The position numbers were made by a program, and so were the translations under genes. This document shows positions 6,055-33,867 of a DNA stretch of 64,000 nt, in pieces. Position 1 is the first letter of the stretch; each line of letters opens with the position of its first letter. Origin of the DNA: Candidatus Zhuqueibacterota bacterium (GTDB taxonomy: Bacteria > Zhuqueibacterota > Zhuqueibacteria > Oceanimicrobiales > Oceanimicrobiaceae); contig JAJDAG010000003.1 in assembly GCA_029262005.1 (NCBI GenBank), positions 1 to 64,000 of the forward strand. The letters are read 5' to 3'. The notes under the pieces were generated by a model. It did not search any database and was not told the DNA's origin. It saw only the letters and a program-made list of their open reading frames with translations.

Positions 6055-6056
6055 TC

Positions 6057-10059: not shown

Positions 10060-12276
10060 TCACGATGCTGCGCCACGGGTTTTTCGTGAGGTTGCAGCAA
10101 CCCGGGTCTTTTTCACAGTACCATTACTTGCCCTGGCCGGCTTTTTCCCGGCAGGCTGCGGCGTTGCCGTAGCACCTTTGCGCTCAACCATTTGCGCCCA
10201 AATGTCATCCATAAGTTCAACCGAACGCACCCCCTCTTCCGCGGAGATTGGCAAAGGCGAATCGTCAAGAATACTTTTGTAAAACAGGCGAATGAGCGTT
10301 TCATTGCCTTGATACATATTGTATTTGCCCAAAACACCGATAAAAATATTGCGCAATGCGGCGCCCAACAAAACCTTCGCTTGAGAAATACTGCTCAAGC
10401 TTCGGCTGATTACGCGGGGCAGTTTGGTACTCGGCTTATCCAGAAAAACCGTTTTGTTGAGGAAATCAACCCGCAACGTACCATCAGTCCCATAAATATT
10501 AACAAACAGGTAGCGTGGCGACACTGCCATGGACATGTTCAACAAGCCACCCATTTTCTCGTTTTCAAAAGTCACGCGCAACTCATCGCTCGCCATGTGC
10601 GGCACGATACGATGAAATTTTGCCTGAACAGCTTGAACCGTAGCATCCCCCATCACATCCAGCAGCAGAGAAATCGGGTGAGAAATAAAATTCTGGTAGA
10701 GCGAGCCAGGCATGTCGTATGCCCAGTTCTTACCGCCTTCGTAAGTCAGATAACGGCTTTTGCTGTCGGAACTGTACGAAGTGCCGTACCAGCTTTCAAC
10801 ATAAGTAACCCGGCCGAGTGCACCGGAGGCTAGTACATTTCTCGCGTCGATCATCACCTTGTCGAAAACATGATTGTGGCCTGCACACAATTTGACTTTT
10901 TGGCGCTTTGCTGCGTTGAGCATTTTTCTGGCATCGGCCCCGTTCAGAGCAAATGGTTTTTCAACAAATACATGGCAGCCTTTTTTTGCTGCAGCAATGC
11001 TGATTTCGGCGTGACTTTGTGCAGGCGTGCACACATGAACAACATCGAGCTGCTCTTGTTCCAGCATCTCCTGATATGTTTCATAGGTATTTACAATACC
11101 ATACTTTTTCGCCATCGCCTTGCGTGCATCTTCCAAAGGATCACAAAGCGCCACAACCTCAGCATTTTGCAATCGTTTCAAGGCGTCCAAATGCGGGCCG
11201 CTGATGACGCCGCAACCGGCGATTCCGACTCGCAAAGTACCGCCGACAGTTATCGGTACCCGAAAATCATCGTTGGCGATTTTTCGTTTGGAGCGACTCT
11301 GCTGTTTGTGCCACAACATCGTGTCGCGCACGCTTTGCCTGAAATCCCGTTGCGGTTTCCAGCCCAACTCTGTTTTCAACTTTTCACTTGAATAAGAAAA
11401 TGGCACGGCACACAATTTCATGTATGAAAGTGGCAGCGGTGAAGTCATGCCAACGAGACCCAAAATTTTGTCAGCGGACACGGACATGAATTTCATGAGC
11501 CCATAGGGCAACTTTACAGCAGAAAATTTAGGTTTGACATAGCGGCGCACTTCCTTAAAAAACTCAAGTTGCGTCATCTTTTCACTTTCAACCACATTGT
11601 AAGTTTTACCAGCAGCCGTTTTCTTGTCGATGCACAACTTCACTGCCTGAGCAATGCCCTCCACATGCGAAAGTGGCAGTGGTAAACGGCCGTCGCCAAC
11701 AATCAGGTAGCGGTTACCACCTGCGGCGAATCCGAGTCTGGAAAGAAAAAGCGGACCGCTCTTTCCGTAAATGGCAGCAGGCCGAAGAATTGTAGTCGCT
11801 AATTTTGACTCTGTATGATATTTGTTGACCAACTGCTCAGCTTCGATTTTGGTTTTGCAGTAATAGGTCTGATTTTCCTGCTCATACGGCATCGCTTCAT
11901 TAAAGCACGTCTCGGGCAAAGAGGCCGAATGATCATAAACAATAACCGAACTAATGAAAACAAATCGCCTGACTTTGGCTTTTACAGCCTGGTCCAGCAA
12001 ATGCCCGGTAGCTTCAACATTGATGGCATAAAAAGCCTCCCAACTGCCACGCAACGTGGCGGCAGCGTGCACAATCACATCAACACCTTTCGCGGCCTCG
12101 GCAATGCACTTTTCATCGTGTAAATCCCCACGAATAAGCCGGACGTTTTTTTCCTCAAGATATTTGGTATCGCTGGTTGGCCGTACAATGGTGACGAGTT
12201 CATGCTTTTCTTCTGAAAAAAGCGCAACCAGATGACGCCCGAGAAATCCGGCAGCGCCGGTAATTAATATTTTCAC
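10060..12276 (-). CDS. Fused SDR epimerase/dehydratase and Gfo/Idh/MocA oxidoreductase
   Basis: One reading frame joins two enzymes. Residues 1-325 are an extended short-chain dehydrogenase: TGAAGFLG at 6-13 binds NAD and Y139-x3-K143 is the catalytic pair. Residues 348-700 are a Gfo/Idh/MocA oxidoreductase: a second Rossmann motif GIAGCG at 351-356 and the EKP motif at 439-441 that carries the catalytic lysine. The last 30 or so residues are rich in Lys, Arg, Ala and Thr and look disordered. The start is a GTG at 12276, with AAGGAG 8 bases upstream. A longer frame begins earlier, but its extra 41 residues are cysteine- and arginine-rich and unlike the family. Together the domains would carry out two steps on a nucleotide sugar. 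The product is unknown. Confidence 0.88.
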   Translation of the reverse strand: MKILITGAAGFLGRHLVALFSEEKHELVTIVRPTSDTKYLEEKNVRLIRGDLHDEKCIAEAAKGVDVIVHAAATLRGSWEAFYAINVEATGHLLDQAVKAKVRRFVFISSVIVYDHSASLPETCFNEAMPYEQENQTYYCKTKIEAEQLVNKYHTESKLATTILRPAAIYGKSGPLFLSRLGFAAGGNRYLIVGDGRLPLPLSHVEGIAQAVKLCIDKKTAAGKTYNVVESEKMTQLEFFKEVRRYVKPKFSAVKLPYGLMKFMSVSADKILGLVGMTSPLPLSYMKLCAVPFSYSSEKLKTELGWKPQRDFRQSVRDTMLWHKQQSRSKRKIANDDFRVPITVGGTLRVGIAGCGVISGPHLDALKRLQNAEVVALCDPLEDARKAMAKKYGIVNTYETYQEMLEQEQLDVVHVCTPAQSHAEISIAAAKKGCHVFVEKPFALNGADARKMLNAAKRQKVKLCAGHNHVFDKVMIDARNVLASGALGRVTYVESWYGTSYSSDSKSRYLTYEGGKNWAYDMPGSLYQNFISHPISLLLDVMGDATVQAVQAKFHRIVPHMASDELRVTFENEKMGGLLNMSMAVSPRYLFVNIYGTDGTLRVDFLNKTVFLDKPSTKLPRVISRSLSSISQAKVLLGAALRNIFIGVLGKYNMYQGNETLIRLFYKSILDDSPLPISAEEGVRSVELMDDIWAQMVERKGATATPQPAGKKPARASNGTVKKTRVAATSRKTRGAAS

Positions 12277-12371
12277 AACTACATCTCCTTCGTTGTTCGT
12301 ATCGAAACGCAAATCAGCGAAAACATAAAAAATCTTTATTTTGCAACATGCACGAAACCGCACAGAAAGCC

Positions 12372-12393
12372 GGCCGGCAACAGTTTTCCGGCC
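12372..12393 (-). terminator. GC-rich hairpin after the GT39-like gene
   Basis: In the 173-base gap between the GT39-like gene and the SDR fusion gene, GGCCGG and CCGGCC arms are separated by a 10-base loop. It lies about 57 bases after the stop at 12450. There is no good U-run behind it, so it may be a weak terminator or only an RNA hairpin. Confidence 0.3.
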
Positions 12394-12449
12394 TGTCACA
12401 CCATTCTAAAAACACCGGAACAACAACCGACATCGCCGGTGGATAGCCA

Positions 12450-18325: not shown

Positions 18326-19324
18326 TTACTCAAGAACTTCCTCAATAGTGTATTCATTGATGTCCTTCGCGTGGGTAAAAATAATCATTTCACCAATCAA
18401 CCCAATGGATATCATTTGAATGCCGATGACAAGCAGCAGCGCACCTAAAAGTAACAACGGTCTACCGGCTATGGGACCGAACTCAAATAGACGGTAGAAA
18501 AACAGATAGGCGCTCATACCTGCACCGACCAAGGCAAAAACCAACCCAAGAAAACCAAGAAAATGCAGTGGCTTTTTCGAATAATTTGTCAGGAAAAAAA
18601 CCGACACAATATCAAGCGTTCTCTGGATGTATTCAGTAAAATACCGCGATTGCCTGAACTCACCGGTCAGTTGCTCAATCTTTTCATCCGTGACTTTATA
18701 ACCTTTGCGTTCGGCTAAAATGGGGAGAAAGATATTCAGGTTTCCGTAAAGTGGAATCTCCTGAAGCAACTGTTTGCTTGCCGCAAACACGCCACTGTTT
18801 GTGTCCTGCAATGCACTCTTCGATATCCATCGAATAATGGTATTGAAGGCCCGTGAGACAAACTGGTTCAATTCCGAATCCCGGCGAGGGTGGCGCAAAC
18901 CCATCACCAGATCATAGCCATCGTCTAACTTGGCCATTAGCGCCGGGACTTGGCTGGCATTAATTCGGACACGAGTCGTAAAGAAAACGATTTTATCGCC
19001 CCCGGCCTGCTTGAAGCCGGCGTCGAAAGCAGCAGCCTCGCCGAAGGAAGCACGCATACGGATGAGCTTTACACGTTTGTCCTTTTCAGCAACCTCTTTA
19101 AGCTCGCCCCATGAACTATCCGTGCTGCCGTCATCAACAAAGATAATTTCGTAATTCTTTTTTGTTTTGCCGAGCCCCGAAATCAGTGCGCCGTAGACGC
19201 TGCCTACCTCATCACCGATGTTGTGAACTGCAACAATAATCGACGCCTGGAGCTTCACCTTTGTTCTTGGCCGTTTGGCTACGCCATCCTTTTGCGCAGC
19301 TTTTTTTTCTGTTTCCACTTGCAT
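18326..19324 (-). CDS. GtrB-like GT2 lacking the DxD motif
   Basis: A 332-residue protein with the fold of polyprenyl-phosphate glycosyltransferases: N-terminal IIVAVHN, IIFVDDGSTDSSW with D64-D65, a SFGEAAAFDAGF helix and two C-terminal membrane helices (about 235-310). Where the catalytic D-x-D-L-Q motif should be (residues 115-121) it reads FTTRVRI, so the metal-binding aspartates are missing although sequence on both sides aligns well. No frameshift is apparent. The ATG at 19324 has GAGGAA at good spacing; a longer frame begins at a TTG. It may be a regulatory or scaffold partner of the active neighbours at 17249 and 19457, or use a metal-free mechanism. Confidence 0.82.
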   Translation of the reverse strand: MQVETEKKAAQKDGVAKRPRTKVKLQASIIVAVHNIGDEVGSVYGALISGLGKTKKNYEIIFVDDGSTDSSWGELKEVAEKDKRVKLIRMRASFGEAAAFDAGFKQAGGDKIVFFTTRVRINASQVPALMAKLDDGYDLVMGLRHPRRDSELNQFVSRAFNTIIRWISKSALQDTNSGVFAASKQLLQEIPLYGNLNIFLPILAERKGYKVTDEKIEQLTGEFRQSRYFTEYIQRTLDIVSVFFLTNYSKKPLHFLGFLGLVFALVGAGMSAYLFFYRLFEFGPIAGRPLLLLGALLLVIGIQMISIGLIGEMIIFTHAKDINEYTIEEVLE

Positions 19325-19456
19325 TAATAAATTTCCTCGCAGCAAATATTATGTTATCCTAAAACCCAACTTTATATCCAATTGGATACCCGTCGCCGGC
19401 GCAGAAGCGAAGAACAAAACCGCGAACGAACACCACGACAAGGAACACCCGGTGCG

Positions 19457-20410
19457 TTAACTCTCCCTTGAAAAATACTCCATGAGCTGCCCTGTTTTCT
19501 TCTCTCCGGTCTTTACGACCAGGCTTGCGATGAGGCCATAAAATACAAACAGAAAACCGGATGTAAGCAACAAAAATGCAAGAGCAACCAGCACATTGAT
19601 GCCGGCGAAATCATAGGCGCCTGTCAAGACCAGATAAAAACAAGCCAACATCGCCGCCACACCACTTATATTGAACAAAAAACTGAACATGCCAAAAAAA
19701 TGAATTGGCCGGTTCAAGTACTTGATGAAAAAATTAAGCGTGGTCAAATCCATAATAACCCGAAAAGTGCGGGTCAAATTATATTTGGATTCGCCAAACT
19801 GCCGCGGGTGGTGATCGACGACCATTTCCGCAATGCTCGCACCTTCGATGCGGGCAAGTGCCGGAATGAAACGGTGCATCTCACCATAAAGTCGAATTTT
19901 GTGAATAATCTCTGAACGATAAACTTTCAATGAGCAGCCGGTATCGTGCAACTTTACGCCGGTGAAAAAACGAATTATCTTGTTTGCAAGTTTAGACGGC
20001 ACTTTTCGGATTAGCATTTTATCCATGCGGTTCTTTCGCCATCCGGCAACAATATCATGTCCTTCTTCCAGCTTACTAACCAGGGCCGGTATGTCTTTTG
20101 GATCATTCTGCAAATCACCATCCATTGAAATAACCACACGCCCCCTTGTCCGCTCAAAGCCGGCTGCCATTGCTGCAGATTGGCCAAAATTACGCCTGAA
20201 TTTCACAACTTTCAAATTGCTATCTTTTTCGTGCAGAGATTTTAGAATTGAAAAAGTCTGATCCGTGCTGCCGTCATCAACCATGATAATCTCATACGGC
20301 TTGCGCATTTTCCTGAGCACTTCCGTTATTCGGTCGTATAAGAGCTCAACATTTTCCTCTTCATTCATCACCGGAACAACGACTGAGTAGTGTAAAATAT
20401 TGTCTTTCAT
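19457..20410 (-). CDS. Polyprenyl-phosphate glycosyltransferase, GtrB/ArnC type (GT2)
   Basis: A 317-residue enzyme with every hallmark of the undecaprenyl-phosphate sugar synthases: VVVPVMNEEENV at the N-terminus, VDDGSTDQT (45-52), metal-binding D97-G-D99 in SMDGDLQND, the acceptor-region NFGQSAAMAAGF, and two C-terminal membrane helices (about 230-300) that anchor the oligomer. It moves glucose or a related sugar from UDP- or GDP-sugar to undecaprenyl phosphate. The start is ATG with a nearby AAAGAAG. It is the upstream-most of three tandem GT2 genes and the likeliest active donor maker for the two GT39-like enzymes. Confidence 0.9.
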   Translation of the reverse strand: MKDNILHYSVVVPVMNEEENVELLYDRITEVLRKMRKPYEIIMVDDGSTDQTFSILKSLHEKDSNLKVVKFRRNFGQSAAMAAGFERTRGRVVISMDGDLQNDPKDIPALVSKLEEGHDIVAGWRKNRMDKMLIRKVPSKLANKIIRFFTGVKLHDTGCSLKVYRSEIIHKIRLYGEMHRFIPALARIEGASIAEMVVDHHPRQFGESKYNLTRTFRVIMDLTTLNFFIKYLNRPIHFFGMFSFLFNISGVAAMLACFYLVLTGAYDFAGINVLVALAFLLLTSGFLFVFYGLIASLVVKTGEKKTGQLMEYFSRES

Positions 20411-20632: not shown

Positions 20633-21226
20633 CTAATTCGAATTTGTCACCTCACCGGCCTGTCGCATCATTGCCCCCCAAAGCACCTTTCTGCGCTTAA
20701 CAAGCCTGATAATCGCCACAAATGGTAGCAACACGGTAAATTCCCACACCAAAGTCCACAAGTTATGCGCCACAAAAAGTGATTGGAGGAAGTCACCGCT
20801 GCTGTTAGATTTCTTGACCGCCATAAAGAGCGAAAAGGGCGACAAAAAGTGTTGGTCTGAAAAAGGCCACAACATCGGCACCCCGGTCGGGTCGGTATTA
20901 TCGACACCAAAAAAATCCAAAAGCACATGTGAATAATAAACTGTAAAGAACATTAGGAAGCATTGTTTAAAGCTCCCCATTTGCCGCAATTGAAAAAAGC
21001 CGGCCAACATTGCACCCACCACAACTGCGGCGCCTAGACTATGGCTCAGGTGCCGATGAAACATGTGAGGATCGCCAAAAAGAAGCCCCGGCAAAAAGTC
21101 AAAATCCGGAAGATTCGCTACAAAAACCACCAGCAGAATCATCTTCCAGGAAGTTAATTTTGACTCCTTTGCAAAACTATCGTAGGCTGCGTAACCTATT
21201 AAGGAATGGCCGACAGGCAGAGGCAT
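20633..21226 (-). CDS. Membrane-bound metal-dependent hydrolase, YdjM/DUF457 type
   Basis: A 197-residue membrane protein with about four hydrophobic segments. Conserved polar residues are those of the YdjM (DUF457) putative metal hydrolase family: His7 in PVGHSLIGY, D41-x-D43 after the first helix, HRHLSHS at 57-63, and SHVLLDFF followed by a WPFS motif. The family is annotated as a predicted zinc-dependent inner-membrane hydrolase; its substrate is not established. The ATG at 21226 has AAGG immediately upstream. It sits alone between longer gaps within the polysaccharide locus, so a phospholipid or glycolipid substrate would be reasonable, but this is inference. Confidence 0.8.
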   Translation of the reverse strand: MPLPVGHSLIGYAAYDSFAKESKLTSWKMILLVVFVANLPDFDFLPGLLFGDPHMFHRHLSHSLGAAVVVGAMLAGFFQLRQMGSFKQCFLMFFTVYYSHVLLDFFGVDNTDPTGVPMLWPFSDQHFLSPFSLFMAVKKSNSSGDFLQSLFVAHNLWTLVWEFTVLLPFVAIIRLVKRRKVLWGAMMRQAGEVTNSN

Positions 21227-21375: not shown

Positions 21376-23235
21376 TTAGTAATCAAGATTTTTTTGCAGC
21401 CAAAGTTCGAGTACCAGCAACGCGTACAACCGATGAGAATAGTCTTTCTTTTTAGAAAGGTGTAAATCGAGCATTCGTCTGACAGCGTCCGGGTTGAAAA
21501 ACCCACGGCTTTTTAAAGCTGATTCGGAGAGCACGTCATTAATCAAGTCCTTGAAAATCGATGTGTTCCGCATCCAATTTTTCATCGGCACATTGTGACC
21601 CATTTTGTCTTTGCGAAATACGATCTCATCCGGCAGGACGCCTTCCATGGCTTTCTTTTGAATGTATTTAACCTGAGAGCCTTTAATCTTTAAATGAGCT
21701 GGTATGGTTGCCGAAAACTCAATGAGACGATAGTCATGCAACGGAAATCGTGCTTCAATACCCCATGCCCTGGTCAGACGCAATCGATCAACGTGAAAAT
21801 GCACCAATGTTTGATAGTCGCCATAAAGGCTTTTACTCAACAAGTCCGGCCCATCGGCATCATCGTACAAACCGGTAATATCATTGTATGAATTCTTCTC
21901 ACCGAGTTCCGCCGTAAAGTCGCGATTGCAAATTTCAGCAAGTTCATCGTCATTGTAGTAGATACGCCAGCGATTACTCAACAAAGTTTCCGGGAAATTG
22001 TAACTATAGGAAAAACGGCGTGCTTTTACCCGCAGACTCTTCTTTTCTTCAGAGTCGGGCAACATACCGGCAACGGCAGTGATGCTGTTTCTAATAAGGC
22101 CGGGAATCATGTCAAACTTTGCTGCCATTTTATCGGCAATATAGACAGGGTGGCCGGCGTACAACTCGTCACCGCCATCACCCGTCAAAATATAATTAAC
22201 TTTCCCTTTGGCAGCGCGGCCAAGAATGTACGAACCAAGTTCCACACCGATGTCGCAGAGTGGCTCCTGCATCCACTCAGTCAAAAGGGTGAGATTTTCA
22301 AGCTCTTTAGCTTCGAATTCCAGTTCATTGTGCTGCGTATTGTAATGCTTTGCCATCACACGGGCAAAGTGAGATTCATCGACATATTTGTCATCACAGC
22401 GGAAGGAAAACGTGTGGATAGGCCGATCTGTGATCCCACTCAAGAGCCCAACCACAGAGCTGGAATCCATGCCACCGCTCAAAAAAGCGCCTGGATCTGA
22501 ATCTTCACCCATGGTCCTGACACGGATGGCATCCCTGGTCAAGTCAAGCATTTCTTCAACAAAATCACTCGTGGGCCGACCATTTTGATCCTTGTATGAC
22601 AATTGCCAATAGCGCTTACTTTGCAGCTTTCCATTTTCAAGTTGCAGGCAATGCCCGGTTTGGATTTTCTTTACTTTCCGGATGAAGGTATCCAAGCCCG
22701 GGTTATAATTGAACAGCAAATAATTTCGGATAGCGCGGTGATTATATGTCTTTTCAACACGCTCATGCTTAGCCAGGGATTTAAGCGATGAACTAAAAAT
22801 CAGCATCTTCTCATCCCAGTAGTAAAACAGCGGCTCAAAGCCAACATGATCTACTGTAAGCACAAATTTCTGTGTCCGTTGATCCCAAATACCCGCAGAG
22901 AACTGACCGTTGAGACTCTCAAAACCGTTGATACCACTGCGCTCATAAGCGGACAAAACAATGCCGGCAACATTATTTTTTTCCTTCGTAACATCCTCGG
23001 TACCAACCTTGAAAATATTACCGGATGCAACCACAGCAATATCTTTGTTTGAACTAAAAGCCAGGCCAACACCATCATCAATTGTCGGCACACCTGTTTC
23101 AACCGTTCCGAGGGCAACATTTTGCCTAATGAAACTGCTGGTTGATTTTTCAGACAATGCCTTTGGCACAAGTTGAAAAAGTGATTCTTTGCTGACCGGC
23201 GCTTCTTTATCTTTATTTATAATTCCGTAAATCAT
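21376..23235 (-). CDS. Asparagine-synthase-like protein with an inactive glutaminase domain
   Basis: A 619-residue AsnB-type protein. The synthetase half is intact: the ATP pyrophosphatase loop SGGMDSS is at 253-259 and TGDGGDELYAGH follows. The N-terminal glutamine amidotransferase half (1-210) keeps its fold (GQFSAGIWD, EPLFYYW) but has lost its chemistry: it starts M-I-Y-G-I instead of M-C-G-I, so the nucleophilic Cys2 is Ile, and there is no RGPD glutamine-binding loop. It cannot hydrolyse glutamine in the usual way. It might use free ammonia, take it from the intact AsnB at 28928, or join an amine directly, as AsnB-derived beta-lactam synthetases and lasso-peptide cyclases do. In this context the acceptor could be a sugar carboxylate. 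Confidence 0.9.
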   Translation of the reverse strand: MIYGIINKDKEAPVSKESLFQLVPKALSEKSTSSFIRQNVALGTVETGVPTIDDGVGLAFSSNKDIAVVASGNIFKVGTEDVTKEKNNVAGIVLSAYERSGINGFESLNGQFSAGIWDQRTQKFVLTVDHVGFEPLFYYWDEKMLIFSSSLKSLAKHERVEKTYNHRAIRNYLLFNYNPGLDTFIRKVKKIQTGHCLQLENGKLQSKRYWQLSYKDQNGRPTSDFVEEMLDLTRDAIRVRTMGEDSDPGAFLSGGMDSSSVVGLLSGITDRPIHTFSFRCDDKYVDESHFARVMAKHYNTQHNELEFEAKELENLTLLTEWMQEPLCDIGVELGSYILGRAAKGKVNYILTGDGGDELYAGHPVYIADKMAAKFDMIPGLIRNSITAVAGMLPDSEEKKSLRVKARRFSYSYNFPETLLSNRWRIYYNDDELAEICNRDFTAELGEKNSYNDITGLYDDADGPDLLSKSLYGDYQTLVHFHVDRLRLTRAWGIEARFPLHDYRLIEFSATIPAHLKIKGSQVKYIQKKAMEGVLPDEIVFRKDKMGHNVPMKNWMRNTSIFKDLINDVLSESALKSRGFFNPDAVRRMLDLHLSKKKDYSHRLYALLVLELWLQKNLDY

Positions 23236-23294
23236 TTAACTCTCCGACTTTCCCAAAGTGACCCGCTCTCAATAGAATTGAAAAAAATTCTCTT

Positions 23295-23368: not shown

Positions 23369-24163
23369 CTAAGTTTCTAAATTTTCCCCTTTCAGGATTT
23401 CATTATGTTCTTTGCCTTTGCGCCTATCCCACATGAACTTTGCAGGCACACCCGCGGCAATGGCAAACTCGGTTATATCTTTGTTCACGACCGCATGCGC
23501 ACCAATAATGCTATCGCGGCCAATTGTGGTGCCATCCAACACTGAGACGCCTGCACCCAGCCAGACGTTTTCTTCAATCGTAATGCCTTTCGAAGATCTC
23601 CCCTGCATTAAAACAGGAATGTCTGTACGATCGCTGTCGTGATCACCGCCAACCAGATAACAAAAGGCCGCCATTAAGTGATTCTTTTTAATGACGATTT
23701 TACTGAGTGATGAAATAACACAGTTAAACCCAATATTCACATTTTCCTCTAACACAATATCGCCATTGTGACAAGTCAAAATGGTACTGCGGCCAATAAA
23801 AACACCGTCATGAATATCAATGCCTTTGTTGTTTTCGCCTTTGGCATCTAAAACACAATTGTCATCAATAACAACATTGTTGCCAACCCGTATTTTCCCA
23901 GGATGACGAATTCCAACGTTTGCACCGATGGCAACACCACGACCCATAGAGCCAAAAATCGCCCGGTAAAATTTCTGACGCAGAAACAAACCCAGCGCGC
24001 CGGGCATCCAGCTAAACAGCGTGATGATAAGCTCAAACTTGATCATATTAAGCAGGCCCGGCTTGCCGACAACAATCTCTTGATACTTTTGCAAAGTAGA
24101 CTTTTTCTCGTCAAAAAGGTCCTTTTGCGTATCCATTATTTGGTGATTATTATTTTCGCTCAT
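23369..24163 (-). CDS. Left-handed beta-helix (hexapeptide) acyltransferase
   Basis: A 264-residue protein whose residues about 80-250 are hexapeptide repeats (IGANVGI, IRVGNNV, VFIGRSTI, VNIGFNCV, VWLGAGVSVLDG, TIGRDSIIGAHAVV) ending in AAGVPAKFMWDRR. This is the serine-acetyltransferase / WbbJ / NodL superfamily, which O- or N-acetylates sugars using acetyl-CoA. A His in GGDHDSDRT is a plausible catalytic base. Residues 30-75 form an amphipathic/hydrophobic lead found in WbbJ-like proteins. AGGAG lies 9 bases before the ATG at 24163. It probably decorates the polysaccharide or a glycolipid. Confidence 0.88.
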   Translation of the reverse strand: MSENNNHQIMDTQKDLFDEKKSTLQKYQEIVVGKPGLLNMIKFELIITLFSWMPGALGLFLRQKFYRAIFGSMGRGVAIGANVGIRHPGKIRVGNNVVIDDNCVLDAKGENNKGIDIHDGVFIGRSTILTCHNGDIVLEENVNIGFNCVISSLSKIVIKKNHLMAAFCYLVGGDHDSDRTDIPVLMQGRSSKGITIEENVWLGAGVSVLDGTTIGRDSIIGAHAVVNKDITEFAIAAGVPAKFMWDRRKGKEHNEILKGENLET

Positions 24164-24260
24164 CAAATGGTCTCCTTTTATCAGTTATCGGCTACAAATC
24201 CTGCATAATATTTAATTTTTATGTAACTAATCTGCATGTCATGCTCCGACTAAGGCCTCA

Positions 24261-25277
24261 TCAGGAATCTTTCCGAAATGCATACATTACACCTCCCAGA
24301 ATACCCAATAACAAAATCATCCCATAAGCAATCCACGAAAAAGCCAGGCTCTGTGCAACCGTGGCTTTGCCCAACATTTCAGTCAAAAACGAAACATAAA
24401 TACCTTCCCGCACGCCAATGCCGTTTATGGATACCGGCAAAGTCTGAATGAAAATACTGAGCGGAATAAACACCAGATAATAATTAAAACCCACATCCAA
24501 ACCCAGCGCTTCGGAAATCAAATAATAGTGAAAAATGACGTTTAGCTGAAACAGCAAGGAAATCAACATCGTCATTGTCAAAACTTTGGTACGACCTCTA
24601 AATGGGGCGAATGCGTCCTGAATCTTGCTAATCAATTTAGTCAGAATGCTGCCGCCCGGCAATCGAGTAATAAAACCCGGTAAACTCCCTGAACTTCCCC
24701 GGAAAAAAATCAACCAGACCCCAAATGTCATGGCGGAAAAGATGCAAACCACCCAGATCCACAGGTTTTCGGTCCGGGTAACAATGCCTGCAGCCATGCT
24801 GAAAGCGAGCAAGGCGAACATCATTAATGCAAACAGACCGAGAAACCGCTCTACGAGAACAATGGCCAGCGATTGTGTTTTTGGTACGCCCTGTTTTGTC
24901 GTATCAAAAGCACGGTAGCCATCTCCGCCAATTGTTGAAGGCAGCAAATTATTAAAAAACATGGCAATTGCATATGAGCGCATGAGATAGCTAACCGGCA
25001 CCTCAAACCCCTGATCTTTCAGCAAAAGATGCCAGCGATAAGAGCTGGAAAAATAACCAATGCCGTGAAGCAAAAACGACAATATTACCAAAGACATATT
25101 TGCAGAAGTGACGGCTGTCCAAATAGCGGCAACATCAGCCTTGCTGACCAAATAATAGATCAGCGCAGCGCTGACTGCCATTTTTACACCCAGCATCAAC
25201 CGCTGCTTACCCGCTTGCCTAGGCGCTTCTTCTTTGCTCCTCTGTACAGATTCGATGTTACCGACTGCGGTATTCAA
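24261..25277 (-). CDS. Lysylphosphatidylglycerol synthase TM-region-like (PF03706) membrane protein
   Basis: A 338-residue protein with about eight membrane helices and the hallmark FFNNLLPSTIGGDGYRAF near residue 110, which identifies the flippase-like PF03706 family (MprF membrane part, AglD). It has no catalytic aminoacyl-transfer domain, so it is not a full MprF. Members are associated with moving lipid-linked sugars or aminoacyl-lipids across the membrane. The start is a TTG at 25277, one base after the stop of the SDR gene at 25279, so the two are coupled. It may flip the polyprenyl-phosphate sugars made at 17249-20410; this is inference. Confidence 0.87.
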   Translation of the reverse strand: MNTAVGNIESVQRSKEEAPRQAGKQRLMLGVKMAVSAALIYYLVSKADVAAIWTAVTSANMSLVILSFLLHGIGYFSSSYRWHLLLKDQGFEVPVSYLMRSYAIAMFFNNLLPSTIGGDGYRAFDTTKQGVPKTQSLAIVLVERFLGLFALMMFALLAFSMAAGIVTRTENLWIWVVCIFSAMTFGVWLIFFRGSSGSLPGFITRLPGGSILTKLISKIQDAFAPFRGRTKVLTMTMLISLLFQLNVIFHYYLISEALGLDVGFNYYLVFIPLSIFIQTLPVSINGIGVREGIYVSFLTEMLGKATVAQSLAFSWIAYGMILLLGILGGVMYAFRKDS

Positions 25278-25278
25278 A

Positions 25279-26265
25279 TTATATTAAACCTTGCGATTTA
25301 TACCATTTGGCCGTGCGCGACAAGCCATCCTCCAATGTTACTTTTGGCTTGTACTTCAAATCTTCTTTGGCACGACTAATATCAAATGCCCTATCCTTGG
25401 TGAAAAAATCCAACCTACGGCGATAAAGTGGTGGCTCAATGCCAAATGGCCGGCAAAGGCTTTCACAAATTATGGCAGCAAAATAAACCGGAAGTAAAGG
25501 CAAGCTGCTTTTGGCAACCGGTTTTTCAAGAATTTTGGCAATATATTCTACCAATTCTTTGAGTTTTAAGTACTCCTCACCACCAATTGTGTAGGTATTG
25601 CCAACCGCTTCTTTCTTCTCTCCGGCCAAAATGATGCCTTCGACCAAATCTTCAACAAAGGTCAAATGGTAAAGCACGTCGCCCTTGCCGATCATACGGA
25701 ATTTACCATTGTTGATAAATTTGAAAAGTTTCAGGAATCGTGTGTCACCGGGCCCGTAAATGCCAACGGGACGAACGACAACGCCTTCCATTTCATATTT
25801 TTCAAAAAAGCCAATTGCCAGCTTCTCACCCTCCATTTTCGATTCCTGGTAATGATCACCAGGTTTGTAGGGAGCAGTTTCCTTGGCTGGTGGATTTTCA
25901 ATCTCACCCTGCACACCGACCGTGCTACAGTGAACAAATCTTCTAACGCCACTTTTTCGAGCACTTTCAAGCAATGCGCGCGTGCCATCAACATTCACTT
26001 TCCAGAAATAATCCCTGGACACGCCTTCCTGGCGATAAGCTGCGGCAACATGAAACACAATGTCTACATCGTTGAGAACGCCATCCTGACTTTCGAGGTT
26101 GGCCAAATCGCCATAGACAAGCTCTGCACCCATTTTTTTGAGGTGATCAACTTTGCTGGATTTTCTCGCGAGCGCTTTTACTTTGTAACCGCGTTCGGCT
26201 AATATTCTACACAGGTGACTACCGGTAAAACCGCTTCCGCCTGTAACAAATACTGTTTTTTCCAT
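25279..26265 (-). CDS. NAD(P)-dependent epimerase/3-beta-HSD-like SDR
   Basis: A 328-residue extended SDR. Nucleotide binding is in VTGGSGFTGSHL (7-18), an AAAYRQ loop follows the third strand, and the catalytic pair is Tyr-x3-Lys in HYQESK. The VRPVGIYGPGD motif is typical of the dihydroflavonol-reductase / 3-beta-hydroxysteroid-dehydrogenase branch, whose bacterial members act on nucleotide sugars or on lipid-like substrates. It follows glpD-like by 20 bases and is coupled to the PF03706 gene. The substrate cannot be read from sequence. Confidence 0.86.
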   Translation of the reverse strand: MEKTVFVTGGSGFTGSHLCRILAERGYKVKALARKSSKVDHLKKMGAELVYGDLANLESQDGVLNDVDIVFHVAAAYRQEGVSRDYFWKVNVDGTRALLESARKSGVRRFVHCSTVGVQGEIENPPAKETAPYKPGDHYQESKMEGEKLAIGFFEKYEMEGVVVRPVGIYGPGDTRFLKLFKFINNGKFRMIGKGDVLYHLTFVEDLVEGIILAGEKKEAVGNTYTIGGEEYLKLKELVEYIAKILEKPVAKSSLPLLPVYFAAIICESLCRPFGIEPPLYRRRLDFFTKDRAFDISRAKEDLKYKPKVTLEDGLSRTAKWYKSQGLI

Positions 26266-26285: not shown

Positions 26286-27962
26286 CTAAGTTTGCGCAAC
26301 ATAAATGGCCCGCGTTTCGGCAAGTTCCGCTGACACGCGTTGTTCATCCCAATTTAACTCTGCGGCCATTATCCGGGCACAAGTTTTCAGTGCAAGCTCA
26401 CCGGGATTACCCGAGCTGCCAAGTTCAGTGCGGCGGCGAACGACATCCGCTAATTTCATGGCCATTTCTTCTCGAACAGCGTAAATCACTTCCGCTTTAA
26501 GCACGGGGCTGGTTGAAGACACCGGCTGTTTTAGCTCCTCGCTTTCTTCAGCATAACGAACAATTGCCGGGTAACCCGAGCCATAATTTTGAATCAAATG
26601 TTCGATGCTTTTCTTAGCAAAAGAATCCGGCTGCCGCGCCACTTCAGCACCCAAGTAATTTTCCATGTGTTCAATTTTACCGCCATGAACCGGGGTTGTT
26701 CGGGTTTGACATTTCGCCTTTTTCCCTAATTTTATGCAAGCTCGATCAACGGTTTTCTCCGCCACATCCCGCGCCGTGGTATATTTAACGCTTACAACAG
26801 ACAGCAATCCATCGATACCGGCTTGCTGCGAATGGTCGATAATCTTATAACTTTTCAGCAGGTTCACATCACCGGTATCCTCGTTGACATCATCCATAGG
26901 CAAAAGCCCACCATAGAAAAAAAGAACATCTTCCCGCTGCAAATTTGCCGGCGGATAAGCGTGGTTCACTTCATCAATGAAGGCTTGAATATCCTGTTCC
27001 CGAATTCTAAACTTCTCTGGATTGCCATCGTAATGCACATGGGTTGTGCCGATCAACGAATATTCCTTCCACGGCGTTACAAAAAACAAGCGCGATCCTT
27101 TATTGACCAACGCATCATCATCTTTTGACTCTGCTTTGCTGGAAATTCCCACGGCAAATTTATCGAACAGCTTTTTCCGGACCACTAAATTCATAGCTGC
27201 TGACATCTCAACTTCTGCCTTTGGCAGATGGCCGTTTAAGCGCTGTAACACTTTGTTGAGCCAAGGTCCGGCATTATTAATCACAAGGTCGGCAGAAATA
27301 TCAAAACTCTCTCCAGTAAATTTGTCTCTGACTTTTACGCCAGTGACCCGATTGCCATCGCGGTTGAAATCTGTCATTTCAACATAATTTGCCACGATTG
27401 CACCGGCGTTGACCGCGGAGTGTAAAAAAGCCAACAGCAGTCGCTCTGAATTATGAACCTGACAATCGTACCAGATGGCGCCACCATTAAGTCCGGCCTC
27501 GTCGATTCCCGGAATAATGCGCTGGCACTCTTCCTTTGAAGCAACCCGGCCCCGTGGCATAAATTTCCCGGGATCCTTAAGCCCATTCCTATCAAAACCA
27601 ATCAAATCGTTGAGAAAGAGAGCCAGGGTCATGACTTCTTTGCCCTTAATCGCGTGGCCATAAGTAGGCATAATGCATGGTAAAGGATGCACAAGGTGAG
27701 GTGCGATACGCATCAGGGTTTTACGTTCACCAATTGACTCGCGCATGCGTTTGAAGTCGGCATGCTGGAGATAGCGCAAGCCCCCATGGATGATTTTCAA
27801 GCTGTTGGATGAAGTAGCAGAGCCGAAATCGTCTTTCTCAATCAGTGCGACGGAAAGTCCCCGAAGTGCGGCGTCCCACGCTGCTGTAACTCCGTAAATA
27901 CCGCCACCAATGATAATAACATCAAAATGATTCCCCCGTAACTGCGCCAAGTCTCTGTTCAT
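26286..27962 (-). CDS. glpD: FAD-dependent glycerol-3-phosphate dehydrogenase (GlpD-like)
   Basis: A 558-residue flavoprotein. The FAD-binding VIIIGGGIYGVTAAWDAALRG is near the N-terminus, followed by EKDDFGSATSSNS and HGGLRYLQ, the GlpD/GlpA signature. A C-terminal DAO_C-like domain covers about 400-558. GlpD oxidises sn-glycerol-3-phosphate to dihydroxyacetone phosphate and passes electrons to quinone at the inner membrane. The open frame begins earlier, but I place the start at the ATG at 27962, 32 bases after the methyltransferase stop, because the extra 21 residues overlap that gene and are not family sequence. It is slightly longer than the roughly 500-residue E. coli enzyme. The neighbours give it no glycerol uptake or kinase genes. 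Confidence 0.88.
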   Translation of the reverse strand: MNRDLAQLRGNHFDVIIIGGGIYGVTAAWDAALRGLSVALIEKDDFGSATSSNSLKIIHGGLRYLQHADFKRMRESIGERKTLMRIAPHLVHPLPCIMPTYGHAIKGKEVMTLALFLNDLIGFDRNGLKDPGKFMPRGRVASKEECQRIIPGIDEAGLNGGAIWYDCQVHNSERLLLAFLHSAVNAGAIVANYVEMTDFNRDGNRVTGVKVRDKFTGESFDISADLVINNAGPWLNKVLQRLNGHLPKAEVEMSAAMNLVVRKKLFDKFAVGISSKAESKDDDALVNKGSRLFFVTPWKEYSLIGTTHVHYDGNPEKFRIREQDIQAFIDEVNHAYPPANLQREDVLFFYGGLLPMDDVNEDTGDVNLLKSYKIIDHSQQAGIDGLLSVVSVKYTTARDVAEKTVDRACIKLGKKAKCQTRTTPVHGGKIEHMENYLGAEVARQPDSFAKKSIEHLIQNYGSGYPAIVRYAEESEELKQPVSSTSPVLKAEVIYAVREEMAMKLADVVRRRTELGSSGNPGELALKTCARIMAAELNWDEQRVSAELAETRAIYVAQT

Positions 27963-27994
27963 GAATATCCGATTATTCCCCTTCGGATTATTAA

Positions 27995-28795
27995 CTACTT
28001 TTTGGCGAATGCCATGATATGCCACCCAGTGTTTCGAGTGATCGTTTTGGGAACCAGGTTAAACGCCGGTACAAAAAAACTGTTAAAGAAAATGGCCTTC
28101 AAGCCGCTTTGCAAACGTGATTTCACAGGAAATCGTTCCGGCAGAATGCGCACACTGGAAAAATTTTCAAGCAATTTTTTAAACTCATCAATTGAATACT
28201 TCTTAAGAACCGGTGCATCTTCGTGCTCCAAACCAACACCCAGGGTTTGCGACAAAAAGTTGAGCCATGATACACGGTTGTAAACCATCATAATCACCTC
28301 GCCATCAGGCTTGATCACCCGACGCAACTCCTCCACCATTTTTTTTGCGTTGGCAGTGTACTGAATAACCCCGTGCGCATAAACCATATCAAAAGTGTCA
28401 TCTTCAAATTCCAAATCCTCACCATTTCCAAGCTGCAAAGTCCCCTCGAGATCGTGATGAGCAAAGTACTTTTGGGCCAAATCCACCGACTGCTCTGCCA
28501 AATCTACGCCTGTAACCTTGGCCCCGCCTCTGGCAAAACGAAATAAGTCGATACCGACGCCGCAGCCGACTTCCAAAATCCGCTTGTCCGCATAGCCAGA
28601 GAAATCAACAACCTCAGGCAAATAACGTAATTTGTCAAACCGATACTCATCCAGGTCGGCAAAAAACCCCTTCGAGCCAACCGGATGTTTTGCAAGTTCC
28701 AAATCGTGAATATGTTCATTCCAGTAAAGACGAATTTCTTCCAGCAAAGAATCTTTGAGTATGAAACCCGGCTGTTCAACTTCATCTATTTTCAT
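27995..28795 (-). CDS. Class I SAM-dependent methyltransferase
   Basis: A 266-residue protein with a Rossmann-type methyltransferase core: SAM-binding ILEVGCGVGIDLFRFA (motif I, about 73-88), acidic GVDLAEQS, and motif IV DMVYAHGVIQYT. This looks like a Methyltransf_11/UbiE-like enzyme. About 70 residues precede the core. I prefer the ATG at 28795 (MKIDEVEQP), which has AGGGATGG upstream; an ATG at 28819 has no ribosome site. It lies between asnB and glpD-like and could methylate a sugar or a lipid; nothing in the sequence names the substrate. Confidence 0.83.
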   Translation of the reverse strand: MKIDEVEQPGFILKDSLLEEIRLYWNEHIHDLELAKHPVGSKGFFADLDEYRFDKLRYLPEVVDFSGYADKRILEVGCGVGIDLFRFARGGAKVTGVDLAEQSVDLAQKYFAHHDLEGTLQLGNGEDLEFEDDTFDMVYAHGVIQYTANAKKMVEELRRVIKPDGEVIMMVYNRVSWLNFLSQTLGVGLEHEDAPVLKKYSIDEFKKLLENFSSVRILPERFPVKSRLQSGLKAIFFNSFFVPAFNLVPKTITRNTGWHIMAFAKK

Positions 28796-28927
28796 TGGTA
28801 CACCATCCCTAAGCAGCATTTGTTTTTTATAAAGATCTTGCGGTCAATTTCTCTAAATTACCCCGGCATTTGATGCGCGCCATTCAATCATCGACAGGTT
28901 GCTTATCATGTGCTTTGTTGCACAGCC

Positions 28928-30869: not shown

Positions 30870-32057
30870 CTACTGCCCTTTCGCCTCTAAGCGATTCTCT
30901 AAATACTGATACAGATCTTTGGTTTTTTTCAGATAAACCTCATAGCTGTATTTTTCCTCGGCAAGTGCCGCAGCATTTTTCGTGATTTTTCGACTTAGTT
31001 CTGCATCCCGAACAACAGACAACACCCCCTGACCAAAAGCCTCGGCAGTGCAGTCAGTTAACACGGAGACGTCCGGATTTAGAACCTGGGTATGCGTCAA
31101 ATGAGCAGTCGCAACAATGGGCTTGCCCGAGCGCAAATATGAGTAAATTTTAAGTGGTGTGTTATTTCCCTGCAATCGCGGGGAAACCAGAAGGTCTGAT
31201 GCTTCAATATATGCGGGCACCTCTTCCGGTGCAACAGAACCGGTAAAAACAAAATGGCCGCCAACCTGCAAATGCTCGGCCTTGTCACGGTAGTGGGCAA
31301 TTTGTTCAGGCTTGCCACCAACCAGAACAAACCTTACACGCGGCTCTTTCTTTACCACGCTTACGCTGGCTTCAATGAGCATATCAAGGCCTTGATACGG
31401 TTCAAATGTGCCGGCATACAAAACAGCTATTTCACCATTTGTTTTAACGGTTTTCTGAATTGATTCAACATCAACCTCTTTCTTAAACACCAAACTATTA
31501 TCTGCAACGTTCTCAATCAGGCAATTGTGTTTTTCCGGGAAGACACCTTTTACATATTCATACAACTCAGGGCAAATGGTTATTACTGCTTCGGCGCTAT
31601 TAATGGTGTAGGCTTCCAGCCTCTCAAAAAGCCGGTTCAGAAAACCAGATTTTGAAAATTGGAAGTTAGCCAATTGCTGCGGCAAACTCGAATGCATATC
31701 ATAAAGGTGCAAAATCCCATGCTTTCCGGCAAAATATGCAGCCCAGAAACCAGCCTCTTCATGTGAATGAATCAGATGGTACTGATTCCGACGCAAGAGA
31801 GTAATGGTTTTCATGAGCATCACCAAATCCAACACGATCTTACTTTTTGATGGACCGATTGCGATGTTATTAATGAAAGGAACGCGGGCAATACGATGAA
31901 TGCTAACACCCTCAATTGCTACATCCTCACCAATATGGTAAGTCAGCAAATCTATTTTGTGCCCAAGTCTGGATAAGGCCTTGAGCCGATGCAACACGCT
32001 AAAAGGCGTACCACGTGGCTGAAAAAAAGGCTGGGGGGCAATCATTAACACTCGCAT
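30870..32057 (-). CDS. Glycosyltransferase family 4
   Basis: A GT-B glycosyltransferase of about 395 residues. The N-terminus reads MRVLMIAPQPFFQPRGTPFS, a common start for capsule GT4 enzymes, with a conserved R-G-T-P loop. The C-terminal donor domain contains LYAGTFEPYQGLDMLIEAS, and the NTPLKIYSYLRSGKPIVAT region carries the conserved nucleotide-sugar contacts. I start it at the ATG at 32057, preceded by GGGATGG; the open frame extends 28 codons further upstream without family similarity. It is 4 bases from asnB, and 353 bases of non-coding DNA lie before it, so it may head its own transcript. Confidence 0.86.
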   Translation of the reverse strand: MRVLMIAPQPFFQPRGTPFSVLHRLKALSRLGHKIDLLTYHIGEDVAIEGVSIHRIARVPFINNIAIGPSKSKIVLDLVMLMKTITLLRRNQYHLIHSHEEAGFWAAYFAGKHGILHLYDMHSSLPQQLANFQFSKSGFLNRLFERLEAYTINSAEAVITICPELYEYVKGVFPEKHNCLIENVADNSLVFKKEVDVESIQKTVKTNGEIAVLYAGTFEPYQGLDMLIEASVSVVKKEPRVRFVLVGGKPEQIAHYRDKAEHLQVGGHFVFTGSVAPEEVPAYIEASDLLVSPRLQGNNTPLKIYSYLRSGKPIVATAHLTHTQVLNPDVSVLTDCTAEAFGQGVLSVVRDAELSRKITKNAAALAEEKYSYEVYLKKTKDLYQYLENRLEAKGQ

Positions 32058-32383
32058 AAAGAAACCATCCCTGTCAAAGTGGTTAAGCTCAAATCTCAGC
32101 TCCAAAAGTCGACACCGGTATTTATCGACTCGAAGTTGCAACTAGGAAATGAATCGGTTGTAAGATAATTTCCTTTAGCAATATTAGTGCCACTGAGATT
32201 GGTGCTATCCGACAAAACATGATGAAACTCATACATGTTTTCATTAAACTTAAGACTCTTGTCTATCGCTAACACATGACAATTCATGTTCCAGTTTGAA
32301 ACGTTGTTATGAACTGACACAACCGGATAGCAAGATATTGCGACTTGCTTTCTGTGATAAAATTGGAGAACTGGTGCAGTATC
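32058..32383. other. Non-coding leader upstream of the GT4 gene
   Basis: About 330 bases between the predicted terminator at 32384 and the GT4 start hold no gene I can support. The only minus-strand frame of any size (74 codons, GTG at 32320 to 32096) has no ribosome site and no recognisable motif. It probably carries a promoter for the GT4-asnB-methyltransferase-glpD run, but no convincing -35/-10 pair or known riboswitch was found. Confidence 0.4.
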
Positions 32384-32421
32384 AAAAAAGAGGCGAGGCC
32401 CAAGGTTGGTTAACTCGCGCC
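32384..32421 (-). terminator. Possible rho-independent terminator at the sugar-transferase stop
   Basis: On the minus strand GGCGCGAG (32421-32414) can pair with CTCGCC (32397-32392) leaving a two-base bulge, about 16 bases of loop, and then TCTTTTTT. The hairpin straddles the stop codon at 32410, so translating ribosomes could interfere with it. The stem is short, hence moderate confidence. Confidence 0.4.
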
Positions 32422-33867
32422 GTAACCAAACAAGACTACAAAAATCGTCTTAAACAGAATTTTAATATCGAGCCAAAGCGACCAATGGTCAATATATTCA
32501 AGATCCATCTCCATCCATTTCTCAAACTGAATCGTATTTCTGCCACTGACTTGCCAGATACAAGTCAGTCCAGGTTTCAAGCTCAAACGCCGCCGTTGCC
32601 ACATCTTGTACAACTCCACTTCCACGGGAAGCGGGGGCCGCGGGCCAACAATACTCATATCGCCTTTAAGCACGTTAATCAATTGTGGAATCTCGTCAAT
32701 ACTAAATTTTCTCAGAATTCGCCCGACGGATGTAATCCGCGGGTCTTTCTTTATCTTGAAGACCGGGCCTTCCATTTCATTCATTTTATCAAGCTCACGT
32801 TTTTTCATTTCCGCGCCAACAATCATAGTACGAAACTTGAAAAGCTGAAACTTACGACCATTCAAACCGGAGCGGATCTGCGAAAACAAAACCGGCCCCT
32901 TGGAGGATGTTTTTACACTGATAACCGCGACCAGAATGAGCGGAACAAATACAATCAACAAGATGATGGACAACACAATATCGATGGTACGCTTCAGAAA
33001 CAATTGCCACTGTTTCGCTGAAAACGTCTCAAACTCCAGCAAAGGAAATCCGCTGAAATCAGTCTGGCGCACCTTGGCAATCCGTAAATTATATAAATCC
33101 ATGGAAATGGAGGTACTAATCCCTTCTCGCTCGCAGGCCAAAATTGCATCATCAATTCTGTTCAGCCACAACCTCGGCACTACAAAAATAACCCGGTCAA
33201 CAACAATTCTATGTAAAATGAACGGTATATCCTGCAACCGTCCCAGCACACGAAAACCTTCTATTTCTTTACCGTACATACCATGTTCATCATCAATCAA
33301 GCCGACTATCTTCAGGCCCCAATTAGCATGATTTTTCACAACTTTAATAAAGTCCCGCGCACGTTTACCCGTTCCAACGATCAAAATATTTACCTGATTA
33401 TACCCTTGCGAGTGAATATAATCGAAAAATTTGTTCTGCAGCAATTTGGCCAGCATGAGCAGAGCAATGGTTATACCAGAATTAATGCCGATGAACAAAC
33501 GGCTCGTTAAAGTAAGCTTGAAAAGAAAAATAAGACTACCAAAGCCAAGCGTTGCGAACGCAGCGGCAGTCAGGATGGTTGCAGATTCCCGGGCAAATGT
33601 ACGGGTGCGAATATCCTTATAGGAACCCAGTGCAGATAGGAGCAATAACCAGATAGGAATGCTGGAGACAACAATAATTACATTCTTCTGAGCAAAATAA
33701 AACAGGCCATAGAGATTTGGTGAGATGGCATACGCCATTTCACCAAGCGCGTAAATATCACGGATGTAGAACGTAATAAAGTACGAGCCCACAAACGAAA
33801 TAACAATACACAGCGAATCAACGACCTTGGCAACGCTGCCGAGGAAAGCTTCTTTTTCCTTAACCAT
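32410..33867 (-). CDS. Polyprenyl-phosphate sugar-1-phosphate transferase (WbaP/WcaJ type)
   Basis: A 485-residue protein with four N-terminal membrane helices, a CoA-binding-like Rossmann region (about 160-285, VNILIVGTGKRARDF) and a C-terminal Bac_transf domain (about 290-485). That last part has the phosphoglycosyltransferase signature: a single hydrophobic re-entrant helix, then FKFRTM, DPRIT and SIDEIPQLINVLKGDMSIVG followed by PRP. The enzyme moves hexose-1-phosphate from a UDP-sugar to undecaprenyl phosphate, beginning each repeat unit. It lies directly after the UDP-uronate epimerase (30-base gap), in the same transcript as the Wzc and Wza-like genes. The sugar is likely glucose, galactose or a related hexose. 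Confidence 0.93.
   Translation of the reverse strand: MVKEKEAFLGSVAKVVDSLCIVISFVGSYFITFYIRDIYALGEMAYAISPNLYGLFYFAQKNVIIVVSSIPIWLLLLSALGSYKDIRTRTFARESATILTAAAFATLGFGSLIFLFKLTLTSRLFIGINSGITIALLMLAKLLQNKFFDYIHSQGYNQVNILIVGTGKRARDFIKVVKNHANWGLKIVGLIDDEHGMYGKEIEGFRVLGRLQDIPFILHRIVVDRVIFVVPRLWLNRIDDAILACEREGISTSISMDLYNLRIAKVRQTDFSGFPLLEFETFSAKQWQLFLKRTIDIVLSIILLIVFVPLILVAVISVKTSSKGPVLFSQIRSGLNGRKFQLFKFRTMIVGAEMKKRELDKMNEMEGPVFKIKKDPRITSVGRILRKFSIDEIPQLINVLKGDMSIVGPRPPLPVEVELYKMWQRRRLSLKPGLTCIWQVSGRNTIQFEKWMEMDLEYIDHWSLWLDIKILFKTIFVVLFGYGAS

Follow-up and report, generated by a model that had tools for sequence, protein, structure and literature searches.

A clade of AsnB-type synthetases without the glutaminase cysteine, encoded beside an intact AsnB in polysaccharide loci of candidate division KSB1

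AsnB-type relatives with and without a glutaminase

AsnB-type enzymes without a glutaminase are already known from antibiotic and peptide pathways. The beta-lactam and carbapenam synthetases have no glutaminase Cys and a working synthetase, and the lasso peptide cyclases, which are also AsnB-type, join a carboxylate to an amine through an amide bond. For surface polysaccharides, PMC7468200 describes uronamide formation by enzymes of the WbpS family in both P. gingivalis and E. coli O121.

The window studied here is the whole 64,000-nt stretch of a Candidatus Zhuqueibacterota genome (contig JAJDAG010000003.1). It encodes two AsnB-type proteins, ASN-I and ASN-C:

21376..23235, minus strand: ASN-I, AsnB-type synthetase without the glutaminase Cys (MIYGI...), 619 aa
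28928..30865, minus strand: ASN-C, intact AsnB / WbpS-like amidotransferase (MCGICG), 645 aa

ASN-C carries HRGPDDEG and its glutaminase domain scores 168.6 bits (Pfam). The first-pass annotation was thus right in placing a complete second AsnB nearby, 5,692 bases from ASN-I. For both proteins the best NCBIfam model is WbpS / eps_aminotran_1 (TIGR03108), with 332.4 bits for ASN-I and 682.2 bits for ASN-C, neither of which reaches the cut-off of 816.9 bits. Since this best model for ASN-C belongs to a family that makes uronamides, ASN-C probably forms a uronamide from glutamine. ASN-I resembles WbpS in its surface-polysaccharide setting but differs from it in lacking the Cys, the glutaminase set and the Lys/Asp gate. 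The XrtA form of TIGR03108 expects an exosortase in the genome; PF09721 gave 0 matches in the genome of the window, and an exosortase link was rejected. With E. coli AsnB, ASN-I has in common the two-domain fold and the synthetase motif, whereas the glutaminase catalytic set is lost and synthetase positions are switched.

No description of a Cys-less AsnB clade was found in the literature searched (open-licence papers, including papers on KSB1), and the word 'asparagine' has 0 occurrences in the excerpt of PMC9012183, on KSB1. Judged from sequence comparisons, the ASN-I clade is real and conserved and apparently undescribed, and its members have a glutaminase of their own that cannot use glutamine. 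The lineage, its setting, the pairing and the gate swap appear to be new, while the logic is that known from beta-lactam synthetase.

The Cys-less clade and its intact partner

The features of the ASN-I gene referred to below are as follows:

23240..23245, minus strand: GGAGAG ribosome-binding-like site, 5' of the ASN-I ATG
23236-23238, minus strand: in-frame TAA abutting the ASN-I ATG
22636..23235, minus strand: Ntn/glutaminase-type N-terminal domain, residues 1-200, retaining its fold but not its catalytic residues
22834..22836, minus strand: Glu134 codon, ammonia-gate position (Lys in intact AsnB)
21379..22608, minus strand: synthetase domain, residues 210-619
22459..22479, minus strand: PP-loop SGGMDSS, residues 253-259
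21784..21786, minus strand: Arg484 codon, tunnel-lining position (Val in intact AsnB), 41/41
21604..21606, minus strand: Lys544 codon, corresponding to Lys449 in E. coli AsnB, 41/41

Residue 2 of ASN-I is Ile, the RGPD loop is not alignable and SGGMDSS is present, as had been read from the DNA. Pfam recognises Asn_synthase at residues 230-614 (237 bits), and its glutaminase-domain models match only from residues 83-90 on. The start is not extendable, the codon before the ATG being the in-frame TAA. With this stop and the upstream GGAGAG, a misread or misassembled start, the objection raised by the first-pass annotation against itself, is excluded as far as sequence can do so.

An AsnB match of some kind was present in 59 of the 60 relatives searched, and the best 30 places gave loci L001 and L006-L034. 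The N-terminus is present in 29 of these best 30 loci, L009 being truncated by its contig, and reads M-I-[F/Y/W/A/V]-G in each of the 29. The same Cys-less start in 29 loci is not the assembly error of one genome. A profile search of 82 genomes of the phylum (candidate division KSB1) gave at least 620 bits in 44 genomes, the next matches reaching at most 565 bits. A contig-cut match in G073, below this gap, starts MLVG, the ASN-I form, and brings the total to 45 of 82 genomes. Cys2 was seen in 0 of the 44 N-termini read in the phylum, that of G006 being cut. Outside the phylum, ASN-I occurs in Desulforhopalus sp. IMCC35007, at L067:9809-11659, and in one MAG each assigned to Desulfobulbaceae, Zixibacteria, 'Deltaproteobacteria' and Gammaproteobacteria.

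The phylogeny, a quick search with SH-aLRT support, was computed on 118 rows of the synthetase domain alone, without L017, L032, L063 and the even-numbered loci L068-L114. All 41 Cys-less proteins formed one clade with SH-aLRT 100 and a long stem, while long branches elsewhere in this tree are unsure; the partner ASN-C proteins formed a separate group. Besides 40 labelled rows, the clade includes L056, which reads M-I-L-G from a GTG start. The tree thereby bears out the expectation of a conserved Cys-less clade neighbouring the Cys-bearing copies, and the sequence data fit a single loss of the glutaminase in the ASN-I lineage. Protein sets skipped ORFs containing X, repeats and ORFs below 450 aa; set A1 was taken without L009 (cut) and the near-copies L017, L029 and L032, and genes of L120 partly missed by ORF calling were shown by tblastn. 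As a separate case in the same phylum, an AsnB with Ser in place of Cys2 and HRGP kept (MSGICG, L058:8053-9942) and an intact one starting MCGICG (L058:9950-11890) are arranged head to tail.

A full intact ASN-C is found in 39 of the 45 ASN-I genomes. It is cut by a contig end or gap in three (G004, G037, G046) and absent from three that are 70, 79 and 82% complete (G006, G054 and G066, respectively). Both genes lie on one contig in 34 of the 45, within 20 kb of each other in 33 and at 28 kb in G076. Conversely, 25 genomes have ASN-C without ASN-I, which makes ASN-I an optional addition to the ASN-C locus.

Beyond the missing Cys, the N-terminal domain has lost its catalytic set. Cys-bearing AsnB groups were picked by their MCG/VCG start, so that only residues besides that Cys count as independent evidence: Arg49, Asn74, Glu76 and Asp98 of the glutamine pocket (E. 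coli AsnB numbering) are present in 42/42 partner ASN-C and 59/59 other Cys-bearing AsnBs. In ASN-I, Glu76 is kept in 4 and Asp98 in 5 of the 41 proteins, and neither Arg49 nor Asn74 appears in the list of the most frequent residues. Gly75 is retained in 41/41, although alignment columns in this region are poor in ASN-I and single retained letters there mean little. Among 47 distinct clade proteins, none has Cys at position 2, where Ile is found in 36 and Leu, Phe, Trp, Tyr or Met in the others, and 46 have an M-x-x-G start. Each of these residues at position 2 should leave the initiator Met uncleaved, in which case an N-terminal nucleophile would not be exposed. Some clade members (L046:3152, L051, L047) carry a Cys at position 3 (MWCG, MICG), one off the nucleophile position and hence not N-terminal. 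Over residues 1-88, pairwise identity averages 0.19 among ASN-I proteins versus 0.58 among ASN-C proteins, and dN/dS over the first 90 residues of close pairs is 0.10-0.43 (8 pairs) versus 0.022-0.14 (6 pairs). Constraint on the first 90 residues of ASN-I is relaxed, not free. The claim that this glutaminase is dead is therefore upheld by the lost catalytic set and the missing Cys2 across the clade.

Synthetase half, ammonia route and candidate reaction

A dead glutaminase across many relatives suggests that ASN-I couples an acid of the coat with some different amine or with free ammonia. We think it reasonably likely that ASN-I, whose activity we infer, is a glutamine-independent, adenylate-forming amide synthetase acting on a substrate of its own in surface-polysaccharide assembly. 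Its C-terminal domain would turn a carboxylate into an acyl-AMP using ATP, because the PP-loop, the acidic residues and the lysine are invariant. The glutaminase domain would be a structural shell unable to make ammonia and, by alignment, the ammonia route to the synthetase appears to have been rebuilt. With no ammonia of its own and a rebuilt route, the acyl-AMP would be attacked by a nucleophile entering from outside, most likely a sugar or amino-acid amine and otherwise free ammonia. The step would belong to Wzx/Wzy-type surface polysaccharide assembly, on a substrate other than that of ASN-C.

In an excerpt of PMC11615228, the tunnel of human ASNS is described as lined by Val119, Val141, Arg142, Leu255, Met344, Ala404 and Leu415, and Arg142 as salt-bridged to Asp405 in the closed form. 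Gate and tunnel positions of ASN-I were assigned by alignment to this numbering, not from distances: the Arg142 position is Lys in 42/42 ASN-C, Lys in 58 and Arg in 1 of 59 other AsnBs, and Glu in 33/41 ASN-I; the Asp405 position is Asp in 101/101 Cys-bearing AsnBs and Met, Leu or Ile in 39/41 ASN-I. The Ala404 position is Arg in 41/41 ASN-I, and the Val119 position is Met in 42/42 ASN-C and mostly Asn, Lys, Gln or Ser in ASN-I. From the intact protein to ASN-I, Lys145 thus becomes Glu134 (33/41), Val495 becomes Arg484 (41/41) and Asp496 becomes Met, Leu or Ile (39/41); phmmer sets one gap beside ASN-I residues 484-485, which would shift that column. We infer that a Glu134-Arg484 pair has replaced the Lys/Arg-Asp gate in ASN-I. 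Against this, E. coli AsnB, which has the Cys, carries Ile at the gate, so that glutamine can be used without a gate pair.

These charged or polar positions speak against an ASN-I that would be fed with NH3, from ASN-C or from bulk, to amidate a second carboxylate, the pair then being a split glutamine amidotransferase. ASN-C also stands alone in 25 genomes and has no need there of ASN-I. Near-strict co-occurrence and the shared locus are what such a pair would predict, and the synthetase site of ASNS is directly reachable by free ammonia according to the same excerpt; on balance we regard this reading as unlikely. The earlier proposal that the two AsnBs may act together has genetic support only (shared locus and strand, compact operon in Desulforhopalus).

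In the synthetase domain, SGGxDS, Asp351, Glu352 and Lys449 (E. coli AsnB numbering) are kept in 41/41 ASN-I. Mean pairwise identity is 0.51 in ASN-I versus 0.61 in ASN-C, and dN/dS of close ASN-I pairs is 0.025-0.168 (7 of 8 pairs computable). An intact ATP pyrophosphatase half, as first proposed, agrees with the invariant catalytic residues and this purifying selection. In E. coli AsnB numbering, uniform switches occur at Gly273 (Arg279 in ASN-I), Phe/Leu274 (Cys280), Ser/Thr322 (Gly330), Tyr357 (His362), Val/Ala388 (Arg484) and Phe452 (His547), and one additional residue precedes the catalytic Lys. Arg279, Cys280, Gly330 and His362 are each found in 41/41, and His547 in 40/40 proteins having a residue there. 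A dead protein would presumably not hold such switches across the clade. We therefore consider it improbable that ASN-I has no catalysis of its own and serves ASN-C as a regulator or scaffold: a degenerate N-terminal domain and genes that travel together would suit that role, but all the catalytic residues checked in the synthetase are invariant and dN/dS of this domain is low.

An AlphaFold2 model of ASN-I (set A2, 18 sequences) reached pLDDT 90.4 and pTM 0.91. In VIA matches, the closest solved fold is the TsnB9 hydroxyamidotransferase (7ylz; Z 33.1, 539 residues, 19% identity), which differs from ASN-I in beginning MCG and having an RGPD loop. The two-domain AsnB fold is recovered against E. 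coli AsnB (1ct9; Z 28.8, 459 residues), followed by human ASNS (Z 27.8), and the predicted N-terminal domain still resembles class II glutaminase domains (Z 15.8 to 1xff). Beta-lactam synthetase (1jgt, Z 27.7) and the carbapenam synthetase CarA (1q15, Z 26.2) have the AsnB fold in common with ASN-I at 17-22% identity, but ASN-I lies in a polysaccharide locus and has an intact AsnB as its partner. Where beta-lactam synthetase has the catalytic Tyr of its Tyr-Glu dyad, a position that we take to be that of Glu348, ASN-I has Asp353 (Asp 40/41, Glu 1/41, no Tyr). The lasso cyclase model NF033535 gives 187.7 bits against a cut-off of 525, and a Pfam scan of 34 proteins of the window showed no leader peptidase, RRE or precursor domain. 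Placing ASN-I in either of the two families to which it had been likened is thus not supported; a beta-lactam-synthetase-like logic is plausible. That ASN-I closes an internal ring (lactam), as those enzymes do, is suggested by the same N-terminal Cys loss and overall fold and made very improbable by the NF033535 score, the Asp at the Tyr position and the polysaccharide locus.

The polysaccharide locus

The genes around ASN-I and ASN-C, all on the minus strand, are:

32410..33867, minus strand: polyprenyl glycosylphosphotransferase (initiating sugar transferase)
30870..32141, minus strand: GT4-type glycosyltransferase
27995..28819, minus strand: methyltransferase
26286..28025, minus strand: FAD enzyme, glycerol-3-phosphate dehydrogenase/oxidase type
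25279..26265, minus strand: SDR, HpnA-like NAD-dependent epimerase/dehydratase, retained in most related loci
24261..25277, minus strand: flippase-like membrane protein (LPG_synthase_TM)
23369..24166, minus strand: WcaF-type hexapeptide acetyltransferase
20633..21226, minus strand: YdjM-like membrane protein
19457..20410, minus strand: ArnC-like family 2 glycosyltransferase
18326..19345, minus strand: family 2 glycosyltransferase

This polysaccharide locus also has Wza, Wzz/kinase and Wzx, and its gene order is mostly conserved throughout the phylum. The Desulforhopalus cassette is a compact operon of GT4, ASN-C, SDR, FAD enzyme and ASN-I, after which it ends; in the Desulfobulbaceae MAG, the ATG of ASN-I overlaps the 3' end of the FAD-enzyme gene.

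ASN-I is a conserved part of polysaccharide loci and nearly always comes with an intact twin for comparison. These natural pairs allow the conversion of a glutamine amidotransferase into a glutamine-independent synthetase to be tested directly, with a short list of switches (the E134/R484 gate, R279, C280, G330, H362 and H547). The predicted surface-glycan amide chemistry was not found to have been looked for in the literature searched (open-licence papers). A more specific scenario can be offered tentatively, as a possibility that we hold doubtful: a deep AsnB-paralogue clade would have dropped glutamine, closed its ammonia channel by a charge-reversed gate and become a glycan amide ligase (carboxylate plus sugar or amino-acid amine). 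Working alongside the glutamine-dependent twin encoded in its operon, this ligase would supply an amide-bearing unit of the surface polysaccharide, possibly the linking sugar for secreted proteins, type IX secretion being encoded in these bacteria.

Three further candidates for a link with ASN-I were set aside. A type IX secretion link is non-discriminating, SprA being present in 79/82 genomes with or without ASN-I. Polysaccharide pyruvyl transferase was found in 11/18 ASN-I-negative and 0/36 ASN-I-positive loci (35 independent ones, L043 and L142 being one contig, and several loci are cut short); as an ASN-I substitute it was rejected, the presence pattern being phylogenetically confounded. 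In loci without ASN-I, it lies mid-locus in L117, L119, L121, L123-L125 and L127-L131. In 19 genomes a polysaccharide deacetylase is encoded no more than 1 kb from ASN-I. At E <= 1e-40 the enzyme occurs in 26/82 genomes, 23 of these with ASN-I; the independent-pairs test had 4 pairs only, too few for significance to be reachable. As a supplier of the sugar amine it is a lead only, with no match at E <= 1e-40 in the genome of the window or in any further genome of its family that has ASN-I.

Several features of the loci were observed in addition. The FAD enzyme of glycerol-3-phosphate dehydrogenase/oxidase type is present in 31 of the 54 loci compared, window included. The flippase-like and acetyltransferase genes (23369-25277), separate in the window, form one ORF of about 600 aa in L035, L038, L117, L137 and others. 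FG-GAP/ASPIC proteins with FlgD-type C-terminal domains are near or adjoin ASN-I in L046, L051 and L136 (Por_Secre_tail in L136). Within the window, an ORF at 10060-12399 joins an SDR epimerase domain and a GFO_IDH_MocA oxidoreductase domain, and both subunits of carbamoyl-phosphate synthase are encoded at 2857-7118, directly after the polysaccharide genes.
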